Assembly (NCBI RefSeq): GCF_037811135.1
Contig: NZ_CP149130.1
Location: forward strand, 571,001 to 635,000
Length of the DNA: 64,000 nucleotides
Direction of reading: 5' to 3'
Origin: Aeromonas rivipollensis
GTDB lineage: Bacteria; Pseudomonadota; Gammaproteobacteria; Enterobacterales; Aeromonadaceae
Below, in pieces: positions 8,404 to 11,085 of this stretch. The notes beneath the pieces were generated by a model. That model saw only the letters and a program-made list of their open reading frames with translations. It had not been told where the DNA came from and did no database searches. Numbering within the stretch: position 1 is the stretch's first letter; each line of letters begins with the position of its first letter. Both the position numbers and the translations under genes were made by a program.

Positions 8404-8994
8404 ATGACCCTCTCCGGATTTCAAGGCCTGGTCTTCGACCTCGACGGCACCCTGGTGGACTCCATGCCCCTGCACCTGGCCGCCTGGGAGCATACCGCCC
8501 GCGAGTTTGGCTTTCAGTTCGATGCCGACTGGTTTTATGAGCTGGGTGGCATGCCCAGTCGCAAGATAGCCTTGCTGGTGGCCGAGGTGCAGCAGATAGC
8601 GCTGGATCCGCTGGTGGTGACGCGTTGCAAGACGGAGCACTACGTGGCCAACCTGCACAAGGCGACCCCCTTCCCGGCCATGCTGGATCTGGTCAGGCGC
8701 TATCACGGCCTCATCCCCATGGGCATAGGCACTGGTTCACCCCGCATCAATGCCGAGGCCGTGCTGCGCAATACCGGGCTGGATCGCTACTTCTCCGTGG
8801 TGGTGACCGCCGACGATGTGGAGCTGCACAAACCCCATCCGGATACCTTCCTGCTGGTGGCACAGCGACTCGGGGTCGAGCCTGAGGGTTGTCTGGTGTT
8901 CGAGGACACCGGCATAGGGGCACAGGCCGGTGAGGCCGCGGGCATGCGGGTGTGCATGGTCAAGGAAGGGAAGCCGGTCGGATTGACCTACTGA
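8404..8994 (+). CDS. HAD hydrolase, YqaB/beta-phosphoglucomutase-like phosphatase
   Basis: The protein is 196 residues of the HAD superfamily. Motif I is VFDLDGTLVDS at about 10-20 with nucleophile and acid/base aspartates. Motif II is GIGTGSP near 108. Motif III lysine is in HKPHPDTF near 141. Motif IV is VFEDTGIGAQAG near 165. The order and cap position match the YqaB group (fructose-1-phosphate and related sugar phosphate phosphatases). It is a stand-alone gene; a TAGAAT-like -10 occurs about 35 bases upstream. Exact substrate cannot be read from sequence. Confidence 0.85.
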   Translation: MTLSGFQGLVFDLDGTLVDSMPLHLAAWEHTAREFGFQFDADWFYELGGMPSRKIALLVAEVQQIALDPLVVTRCKTEHYVANLHKATPFPAMLDLVRRYHGLIPMGIGTGSPRINAEAVLRNTGLDRYFSVVVTADDVELHKPHPDTFLLVAQRLGVEPEGCLVFEDTGIGAQAGEAAGMRVCMVKEGKPVGLTY

Positions 8995-9033
8995 GAAAAC
9001 GGGCTGGTCATCGAGGCCGCCTGGGGGAGAAGA

Positions 9034-9071
9034 CCCACTCTCATACGGGACAGGCATGACATGAGAGTGGG
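9034..9071 (-). terminator. hairpin downstream of the Hfq-like gene
   Basis: An 11-base perfect stem CCCACTCTCAT/ATGAGAGTGGG has a 16-base loop and lies 59 bases past the Hfq-like stop codon. The T tract after it is weak (TCTTCTCC). It is therefore a likely but imperfect terminator. Confidence 0.5.
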
Positions 9072-9129
9072 GATGCGCGTCGTCACAGATTGACGCAGCG
9101 GCAAGCTCAGAGCGAGGAGGAGGCGAGCA

Positions 9130-9489
9130 TCACTGCTCGCTGCTACCGCCCTGATTGTCGTCATAACGGCTCGGGCCGCCGTGGGGACGCGGGGCCATGG
9201 AGACCCGTGGCTTGCGGGCGCGCTGGATGCTGACCGCCGGGCGACCTGAGTGCATGGCGATGGTGGAGATCTTGGCCTTGTAGACCAGTTGCTGATTGCC
9301 ATGGGCATCGGTCAACAGCACGCTGTACTGGTCGAAGCCGCTGATGGTCCCCTCCAGCTTGATGCCGCTCACCAGGAAGATGGCGACCTGACTGCGGTTC
9401 TTGCGCAACCAGTTGAGGGCAGAATCTTGCCCGTTCCCAAGAGAGAAGGCCTGCTCGATAGTGGAGTAGCTTGGGGATTCAGTTGTCAT
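9130..9489 (-). CDS. Hfq-like Sm-fold RNA-binding protein (divergent paralogue)
   Basis: The protein is 119 residues. Residues about 20-80 align with Hfq. They include the N-terminal helix (QDSALNWLRKNR, keeping the Q and D of the proximal face), Sm1 (VAIFLVSGIKLEGTISGFDQYSVLL, with GIKL and FDQ) and Sm2 (VYKAKISTI). Hfq normally has YKHAIS, so the conserved histidine is replaced and a lysine moved one place. The loop between Sm1 and Sm2 is two residues longer. The C-terminal tail (about 85-119) is Arg/Pro/Gly-rich. Canonical hfq normally sits beside miaA and hflX, which are absent here, so this is probably a second copy. It has its own promoter at 9524-9552 and a hairpin after it. Family membership is clear; the function is inferred. 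Confidence 0.85.
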   Translation of the reverse strand: MTTESPSYSTIEQAFSLGNGQDSALNWLRKNRSQVAIFLVSGIKLEGTISGFDQYSVLLTDAHGNQQLVYKAKISTIAMHSGRPAVSIQRARKPRVSMAPRPHGGPSRYDDNQGGSSEQ

Positions 9490-9523
9490 AAATTATTGTC
9501 CCGCGGAAAAAAAGTGGCGTTTG

Positions 9524-9552
9524 ATTGTGCTAAATGGTCACAGGCTTGTCAA
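9524..9552 (-). promoter_or_regulatory. predicted promoter of the Hfq-like gene
   Basis: On the minus strand, a perfect -35 TTGACA (9547-9552) lies 17 bases from CACAAT (9524-9529). That places the transcription start about 30 bases before the ATG at 9489. Confidence 0.6.
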
Positions 9553-9813
9553 AGTCATTCTCACCCCGCCGCCAAAGCATCGGTGAACAGGGGCTGATGT
9601 GCATGGGCTTGCGCAAATCTGCAGATAAATATGCCCCTTTTCCCTGGGGCCTGGGTCGAGCGATGCCAACAGGCCCTCTTTCCAGATCGCGCCCCATGCC
9701 CATGTATCTCGCGTCCCTTAAGGCCCTGTACATGAACAGGGCTGGTGGTTAGCGGCGGTGGCTGCAATAATTGGCGCCTCTGGCCGTTCTCGGCCTCATG
9801 CTGGGGTCCTATC
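9553..9813. other. intergenic region between the Hfq-like gene and pqiA
   Basis: I see no convincing gene here. A 7-base stem GCCCTGT/ACAGGGC at 9723-9742 lies just before the pqiA reading frame and has no T tract. The pqiA promoter must lie in this stretch, but I cannot point to good -10 and -35 boxes. A short open frame at 9534-9752 has no start signals or coding character. Confidence 0.4.
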
Positions 9814-11085
9814 TTGTATCCGGTTTCACACCAACACCCAATTACCTATACCCATGACGCGACCGCGTGCGAAGAGTGTGACCTGCTGGTGCCGGCCACC
9901 GCGCTGGCCGTGGGGGAGACGAGCAGTTGTCCCCGTTGCGGTCACACCCTGAGTGCGCACCTGCCGCAACAGGAGCGCAGGCCCATCGCCTATGGCTTTG
10001 CGGCGCTCATCATGTTCGTGCTCTCCAACGCCTTCACCTTCATGTCCTTCTCGGCCAAGGGAGTGGGGCAGGAGATGACCTTCCTGCAGTGCATCACCAC
10101 CCTGGTGGATCAGGGCTATCTGTTTCTGGGGGCCGTGCTGAGCCTGACCCTGATCGGCCTGCCACTGGTCTATATCGGCTCCATCATGCTGGTGCTCTGG
10201 CGGCTCGACAAGGATCTGCACAGCAATGCCCTGCGCTCCCTCGGCCGACTGCTGTGCCGGATCAAACCCTGGCTGATGGTGGATGTCTTCCTCATCGGGG
10301 TGCTCATCTCCCTGGTCAAGCTGATGGGCATGGCGGACGTCAAGATGGGGCTCTCGTTCTGGGCCTTCGTGGGCTACACGGTGCTGCTGATCAAGATGAT
10401 CTCGTCCCTGGACCGGATGTGGTTGTGGCAGCGGCTGTTCGGCCCGACCGAGGCGAGGGAGCTGGATCCCGAGGCCAGTGCCCTGGCGTGCGGGCTGGTG
10501 GGTTGCCACATCTGCGGCGCGCTCAATGACGGCGATGCCCACAGCTGCTCGCGCTGCGGCGATCATCTCCATCACCGCAAACCGGGCGGCCTGAACCGCA
10601 CCTGGGCACTGCTCATCACCTCGGTGATCCTCTATATCCCAGCCAATCTCTATCCCATCATGGACACCGTCTTTCTGGGGGACGACAGCCCCTCGACCAT
10701 CATGGGTGGTGTGGTGTTGCTCTGGGCCATGGGCTCCTACCCCATAGCAGCGGTGATCTTCTTTGCCAGCGTGGTGGTGCCCCTGGTGAAGATACTGGCA
10801 CTGCTGTGGCTCTGCTACATGGTGCAGCGTGGCCGGGTCGGTTCTCCCCTTGGCAAGCTCAAGCTCTATCGCATGACCGAATTTGTGGGACGTTGGTCGA
10901 TGATCGACGTCTTCGTGGTGGCCATATTGGCTGGCCTCATCCGGCTCGATAATCTGATGACCATCTACCCGGGCCCCGCGGCCATTGCTTTTGCCGGGGT
11001 CGTTTTGATCACCATGGTGGCCGCCATGAGTTTCGATTCCCGCCTGATCTGGGATTTACAACAAGGAGAGCGCGAACGTGAGTGA
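9814..11085 (+). CDS. pqiA: paraquat-inducible protein A, membrane subunit of the Pqi lipid transporter
   Basis: PqiA is the inner-membrane partner of the PqiB MCE tunnel, which moves lipids between inner and outer membranes. The protein has two tandem PqiA domains. Each begins with a zinc-ribbon pair (CEECD and CPRCGH near the start; CHICG and CSRCGDH near residue 230-245) followed by four membrane segments. The start is uncertain: there is no in-frame ATG before the first zinc ribbon. TTG 9814 with GGGG upstream is preferred; GTG 9745 would add 23 residues of atypical sequence. It overlaps pqiB by 8 bases, so the three pqi genes form one operon. Confidence 0.9.
   Translation: MYPVSHQHPITYTHDATACEECDLLVPATALAVGETSSCPRCGHTLSAHLPQQERRPIAYGFAALIMFVLSNAFTFMSFSAKGVGQEMTFLQCITTLVDQGYLFLGAVLSLTLIGLPLVYIGSIMLVLWRLDKDLHSNALRSLGRLLCRIKPWLMVDVFLIGVLISLVKLMGMADVKMGLSFWAFVGYTVLLIKMISSLDRMWLWQRLFGPTEARELDPEASALACGLVGCHICGALNDGDAHSCSRCGDHLHHRKPGGLNRTWALLITSVILYIPANLYPIMDTVFLGDDSPSTIMGGVVLLWAMGSYPIAAVIFFASVVVPLVKILALLWLCYMVQRGRVGSPLGKLKLYRMTEFVGRWSMIDVFVVAILAGLIRLDNLMTIYPGPAAIAFAGVVLITMVAAMSFDSRLIWDLQQGERERE

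Follow-up and report, generated by a model that had tools for sequence, protein, structure and literature searches.

A 119-residue protein encoded in the 64,000-nt stretch of Aeromonas rivipollensis DNA analysed here (the window) is a true second copy of Hfq and belongs to a conserved, residue-defined subfamily, Hfq2, whose restriction to Aeromonadales is well supported by our sequence comparisons, if not proven. Our preferred reading, held with equal measures of belief and doubt, is that Hfq2 may form a separate Sm ring that would bind RNA mainly through its distal face and capture the 3′ ends of small RNAs (sRNAs) weakly. Cai et al. reportedly described an ‘Hfq2’ of Aeromonas hydrophila in 2019 (J Proteomics 195:1–10), and this is very probably the same gene, since every one of the 37 genomes scanned from the window's genus contains two Hfq-like matches and no more. 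The existence of the gene is thus very probably known already, and what merits testing is the subfamily, conserved and recognizable by its residues, with its likely split of function. In our searches of the open literature, subscription papers excluded, none of the listed titles and abstract openings dealt with a second Hfq found throughout Aeromonadales, with its signature or with its synteny; the terms ‘hfq2’ and ‘Aeromonas hydrophila’ occur together in two further articles (PMC6854023, PMC7660227), and a strain-validation primer pair given in an A. veronii hfq study (PMC8652118) matched none of the loci compared with it.

The gene, its parts and its relevant neighbours are as follows.

9130..9489, minus strand: hfq2, an open reading frame with an ATG start for the 119-residue divergent Hfq/Sm protein

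9430..9489, minus strand: N-terminal extension (residues 1–20) with motif QAFSxGNG and a predicted extra helix at residues 11–17

9259..9282, minus strand: Sm2 motif YKAKISTI (residues 70–77), canonical YKHA being replaced by YK[A/D]K

9130..9252, minus strand: tail and stop codon, a basic first part followed by an acidic tip, modelled at low confidence (pLDDT 55–61)

9490..9523, minus strand: presumed short leader, containing CGCGGGACAATAA(T/C)TT before the ATG, a stretch invariant in 12/12 Aeromonas except at the marked base

9524..9552, minus strand: sigma70-type promoter TTGACA-17-CACAAT, with TTGACA at 9552 and a 17-nt spacer

8404..8994, plus strand: HAD-type phosphatase convergent with hfq2 (PF13419, 107.9 bits), a neighbour in both families

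G000:C1:865471-865656, elsewhere in the genome: canonical hfq, between the miaA and hflX open reading frames

The open reading frame is real and falls within the wide-sense Hfq family by profile score, at 74.9 bits for TIGR02383 (cut-off 61.7) and 80.8 bits for PF17209 (cut-off 27); its protein is 100% identical to that of A. rivipollensis G78. The monomer model has an N-terminal helix and a five-strand Sm barrel; homology and this model together show the Sm fold, which canonical Hfq shares in a VIA-align comparison. From the letters of this DNA, the original prediction had described an Sm1 pattern, GIKLEGTISGFDQ, an Sm2-like YKAKISTI, an N-terminal QD, a conserved arginine helix and the loss of the canonical YKHAIS histidine. 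All are present: the helix ends in RKNR (residues 29–32), and the histidine is replaced by alanine. Relative to the canonical proteobacterial Hfq of E. coli and P. aeruginosa (TIGR02383, PRK00395), the protein shares the Sm fold, Gln8, Gly29, Lys31, Gln52, Tyr55, Lys56 and Thr61, but its score against the Hfq equivalog NF001602/PRK00395 is 70.6 bits, below the 95-bit cut-off, its His57 motif is lost, and its neighbours are the HAD phosphatase and pqiABC rather than miaA and hflX.

That canonical gene is present in the same genome. The 4.55-Mb single contig contains exactly two PF17209 matches, and the second, at 102.8 bits, is a canonical Hfq flanked by miaA and hflX, which we named from their sequence rather than by family scan. 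The gene at 9130–9489 is therefore a true second copy, as had been proposed together with a search for hfq beside miaA, and the candidate explanation that Hfq2 is the sole Hfq of the genome is ruled out by this second match. In our tree, the canonical protein clusters with Hfqs from elsewhere in its order, and of the 70 Aeromonadaceae genomes that have Hfq2, 69 contain a further Hfq match.

The subfamily is best described by its residues. We tallied 156 distinct frames, of which 59 are YKAK (22 from Aeromonas loci), 18 YKDK, 67 YKHA and 12 other; positions follow what we take to be the E. coli numbering, with an assumed assignment of residues to faces, and were mapped onto Hfq2 by alignment. 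Because the groups are defined by the Sm2 motif, they give no independent count at positions 57 and 58, where 40 of 42 Hfq2 sequences from family f3, selected through the profile without regard to the motif, have A or D followed by K. This family is very probably Succinivibrionaceae. Gln8, Phe at 25, Gly29, Lys31, Gln52, Lys56 and Thr61 are each found in 77/77 YK[AD]K frames; Tyr55 is kept as well, and position 42 is aromatic (Tyr or Phe). Against this background, a set of changes is fixed or nearly so: Ala at 11 in 77/77 (Phe in 63/67 of the YKHA group), Trp in place of Ala at 14 in 76/77, and Glu at 33 in 77/77 (Gln in 61/67). The β4–β5 loop has seven residues in 77/77, whereas the 67 distinct YKHA-type Hfqs have five in 47, six in 15, seven in four and ten in one, so the reported two-residue insertion between Sm1 and Sm2 is correct relative to most of them. 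The changes Q33E, F11A with A14W, and A58K and the predicted extra helix were absent from the original prediction, whose observations were right, if understated in scope, and whose interpretation, altered RNA specificity or mixed rings with Hfq, is partly supported.

Position 43 bears on the second half of that interpretation. It is Ser, Cys or Thr in 77/77 YK[AD]K frames, against Val in 47/67 and Cys, Ser or Thr in 17/67 of the YKHA group, and it has changed together with the contact residue His57 (H57A/D). In the available part of a P. aeruginosa Hfq study, Tyr55 stacks on His57 at the subunit contact and a triple mutant bearing V43R is monomeric (PMC9228748). Hfq2 subunits could join canonical Hfq in mixed hexamers, modulating the proximal face or tail of the latter, as both Hfq-fold proteins are encoded in the same cells. 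The joint change of contact positions could equally favour separate rings, and we regard mixed hexamers as unlikely, third in our ranking.

The proximal side bears on whether Hfq2 is a full sRNA chaperone. His57 is placed to meet the sRNA 3′-hydroxyl, according to an excerpt of one study (PMC5379935), and in an excerpt of another, E. coli H57A retains 66.5% of wild-type DsrA binding and 72.7% of RNA I binding, compared with 24.4% and 36.1% for K56A (PMC11012335). Given the modest loss in H57A, the proximal pocket is probably weakened or altered, and not abolished, by the histidine change by itself. Hfq2 might still serve as a full chaperone for its own sRNA subset or growth conditions and differ little from Hfq in mechanism, a reading to which this modest loss, the retained Gln8, Lys56 and aromatic residue at 42, and the basic RKNR patch of Aeromonas all lend weight. 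A redundant copy would not be expected to show the fixed changes at 11, 14, 33, 57 and 58, and the YKDK sub-branch has kept the gene with no basic residue at position 16 or 17 (0/18 each), where the YKAK group has R or K in 55/59 and 47/59, respectively. We consider the full-chaperone reading improbable, albeit the foremost of the rivals. In the 18 tallied frames of the YKDK branch, which belongs to f3, positions 16–17 are acidic or uncharged, and in several frames of this branch the open reading extends well beyond the core on both sides.

The N terminus also differs. Residues Q13, A14, F15, S16, G18, N19 and G20 are invariant in a 14-row alignment, and the motif drifts in the YKDK branch. 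The predicted helix at residues 11–17 lies in a block of the model that scores well (mean pLDDT 93); in a second look with VIA-align, the rows mostly begin at residues 16–19 and hardly probe this helix, and we therefore make no claim of a new fold for it. A conserved motif and a predicted helix just before the first Hfq helix, together with the loss of charge at 16–17 in the YKDK branch, would suit a protein that has left Hfq-type RNA regulation and works chiefly by way of a different partner, be it protein or DNA, docked on the remodelled side. Gly29, Lys31, Gln52, Lys56 and Thr61 are nevertheless invariant in 77/77, and this reading appears very improbable, the last of the four.

The C-terminal tail is probably disordered, judging by the model. 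The tail noted in the original prediction as Arg/Pro/Gly-rich and 35 residues long does exist and is closer to 40 residues, with 7 K/R and 3 D/E; the tail of the canonical Hfq of this genome has 1 K/R and 4 D/E. Across Aeromonas, 14 Hfq2 tails have 7–8 K/R and 3 D/E, and 13 canonical tails have 1 K/R and 4–5 D/E. Outside this genus, the six Hfq2 tails read are almost charge-neutral (K+R/D+E of 5/4, 5/3, 8/7, 10/9, 7/6 and 8/6), so the argument from the tail holds for Aeromonas only.

These features are the ground for the preferred reading of a separate, mainly distal-face ring. The distal face appears mostly kept in the alignment, except for Q33E, which we take to be a distal-face position, and, in the YKDK branch, I30V and L32F. 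Hfq2 subunits would form their own ring, the largely intact distal face would bind A-rich (ARN-type) RNA and, in Aeromonas, the basic tail would bind extra RNA. Such a ring would be poor at seizing U-rich sRNA 3′ ends because His57 has been lost, position 58 is Lys and a helix is added before the first Hfq helix; we infer the placement of this helix, of Trp14/Ala11, of Lys58 and of the Aeromonas tail. Hfq2 would be chiefly a post-transcriptional regulator that binds mRNA, or an accessory Hfq, and less the principal sRNA matchmaker; canonical Hfq is still present for that task. We count against this reading that E. coli H57A keeps much of its RNA binding, that Lys56 and Gln8 are kept and that some other Hfqs also lack His57, and Q33E may instead weaken the distal face. 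A stronger version, which we put forward tentatively and with doubt prevailing, is that an Aeromonadales-wide Hfq offshoot gave up the sRNA side, through a remodelled 3′-end pocket, the added helix and, in one branch, the loss of charge at 16–17, and kept the mRNA (distal) side, yielding a dedicated mRNA-binding Sm ring beside Hfq and insulated from it. If true, this would be a natural separation of Hfq's two functions within one genome. In canonical Hfq, a single ring performs several tasks through its various faces, and a second, independently conserved ring with some faces kept and others changed would let these tasks be separated naturally in Aeromonas and Succinivibrionaceae; work on RNA regulation in Aeromonas that assumes one Hfq may be incomplete.

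Two known systems invite comparison. Burkholderia Hfq2 is likewise a lineage-wide second Hfq beside a normal one with a variable C-terminal part, but, in the accessible portion of its description, it is a betaproteobacterial protein of 175–216 residues with a Gly-rich C-terminal extension, and its place in the published tree is near Hfqs of Methylobacter, Methylomonas, Methylococcus and some Legionella (PMC7074383); the present protein has 119 residues and a tail of about 40, without that long extension. The P. aeruginosa Hfq mutants H57A and H57T (PDB 3m4g, 3inz), as titled, also lack His57 and have solved structures, but they are laboratory-made, and 3m4g reads YKAAIST over only 82 residues, with Ala kept at 58. 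Unlike canonical Hfq, Hfq2 combines the loss of His57 with Lys at 58, the changes at 11, 14 and 33, a longer loop, a predicted extra N-terminal helix and, in Aeromonas, a basic tail.

Hfq2 is nearly universal in the family of the window. A strong Hfq2 match occurs in 70/75 Aeromonadaceae genomes: 37/37 of the window's genus, 23/23 of genus g3, 9/11 of g5, 1/3 of g4 and 0/1 of g2. Among the five misses, four genomes are 63–87% complete (G061, G062, G068, G072) and G037 is complete. When 295 genomes of the order were scanned with PF17209, two matches were seen in genomes of f1 and f3; elsewhere, they occurred in one f15 genome (G131, the second match at 22.7 bits, under the cut-off) and one f12 genome (G321). 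NCBI taxonomy places Aeromonadaceae and Succinivibrionaceae together in Aeromonadales. With the Hfq2 profile, 42 of 56 f3 genomes have at least two matches, four have one and ten have none. The single match is canonical in G101, G737 and G745, and in G729 (59% complete) it starts like a canonical one. The 42 f3 Hfq2 sequences comprise 13 YKAK, 27 YKDK, one SKTR (L228) and one that ends after YK (L229). L228, from genome G122, is aberrant, with QE for QD, RIRLEG for GIKLEG and ISKTRISTI for YKAKISTI, and keeps a basic residue at 58; its genome also has a canonical Hfq (L091). The ten f3 genomes without a match are all of genus g94 (G712–G719, G317, G333), in which the Hfq2 profile is unmatched in 10/10 genomes, 8/10 of them at least 90% complete, and a PF17209 scan of two found no Hfq match either, an apparent loss of both Hfqs. 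G730, also of f3, has three Hfq matches, two canonical (L155, L161) and one of YKDK type (L176), which together could reflect contamination of the assembly.

Beyond these families, the Hfq2 profile reaches at best 72.9 bits in 369 class-level genomes and 71.1 bits in 299 phylum-level genomes (overlapping draws, the window's own genome excluded). Hfq2 sequences themselves span scores of 63.6 (G076) to 205 bits, so score by itself does not separate the most diverged members, and loci were read directly: 19 from the class scan, 23 new ones from the phylum scan, and the second copies of 13 genomes with several copies, which include, G000 apart, all 11 genomes where the class scan gave more than one match. 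From thirteen more phylum-scan genomes with two matches, L182, L183 and L191 were read; single-match genomes were read from the top of the lists. None of the readable loci outside f1 and f3 has A or D followed by K at 57–58 (L174 left out, L173 cut short). L182, L183 and L191 (f226, another class of the phylum) are single frames with two tandem Hfq domains of YKHA type, the second reading YKHAVS, and Ser stands at 57 in three phylum-scan Hfqs (L178, L185, L189) and one second copy elsewhere (L165).

The site of the gene is conserved as well. We assessed synteny by BLAST of the window neighbours at E 1e-6. At the 30 Aeromonas loci (L033–L062), pqiABC lies upstream in 30/30 and HAD downstream in 27/30, the exceptions being L057 (2.6 kb of downstream sequence), L058 and L060. 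HAD is present in 4/6 of L063–L068, L064 and L066 ending soon after hfq2. The 20 loci of g3 and g5, from 32 genomes with Hfq2, have dapA downstream in 20/20 and HAD in 10/20, and pqiABC was not found there at the same threshold. In f3, HAD occurs at 23 of 30 loci of 2–3.3 kb (42 in all), and dapA is present at the longer L068, the sole f3 locus where it could be checked. As HAD proteins are common, it is the shared position and convergent orientation that constitute the evidence.

The phylogeny of both copies, suggested with the original prediction, separates them. In a tree of 101 rows and 60 columns, 37 Hfq2 rows form one clade apart from canonical Hfq (support 100/95), with the YKDK rows nested within the YKAK rows; the columns are few, the branches long and the bootstrap unsettled, so the tree does not identify the Hfq from which this clade derives. 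Most simply, these sequences suggest that Hfq2 arose once, before Aeromonadaceae and Succinivibrionaceae split, and stayed at one chromosomal site. A recent acquisition or mobile origin was considered and rejected: 75 of 76 records in a plasmid search are below 60% identity, the remaining one (95–99%) being a 4.9-Mb A. caviae record that we take, from its size, as a chromosome, and 6/6 phage matches are also below 60%. By a simple Nei–Gojobori count over residues 1–79, 91 pairs of 14 Aeromonas hfq2 genes give a median dN of 0.011 (mean 0.0093) and a median dS of 0.695. The corresponding values for 78 pairs of 13 canonical hfq genes, from a different strain set, are 0 (mean 0.0012) and 0.407. 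Low dN relative to dS thus indicates tight constraint on Hfq2, if weaker than that on Hfq.

Conservation also speaks for the promoter. Its first hexamer is perfect, as the original prediction stated; the second, CACAAT, matches at only 4/6 positions, and one such site in a scan of 8900–9900 against a mean of 0.4 in shuffles is unremarkable by itself. We therefore base the promoter on its conservation across relatives and not on the match in the window scan. Both hexamers are invariant in 12/12 aligned Aeromonas, in the conserved form TTTGACA-17-CACAATCA, and the same promoter, its spacer 17–18 nt long, precedes the gene in 23 of the 28 distinct leaders from Aeromonadaceae: 6 of Aeromonas, 16 of g3 and that of L063, whose second hexamer is CAAAAT. 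It was absent from 5 Tolumonas-type leaders and was not seen by eye in 12 f3 leaders. Between promoter and start codon, 11 of the 16 g3 leaders (L069–L088 except L080–L083) are A-rich with 4–5 ARN triplets, which single-base shuffles reach in 0.8–9%, and they are a possible self-binding site of Hfq2. The 6 Aeromonas leaders have only two ARN triplets, which 34–47% of shuffles reach, and do not stand above shuffled sequence. In the gap between the convergent HAD gene and hfq2, a hairpin of 12–13 pairs lies at 9034–9071 without a U-run (z −2.71 for a 121-nt stretch). An Rfam scan of the window returned five tRNAs only, tandem genes of 83 nt each at 755–1395 on the minus strand, scoring 50.7 bits each.
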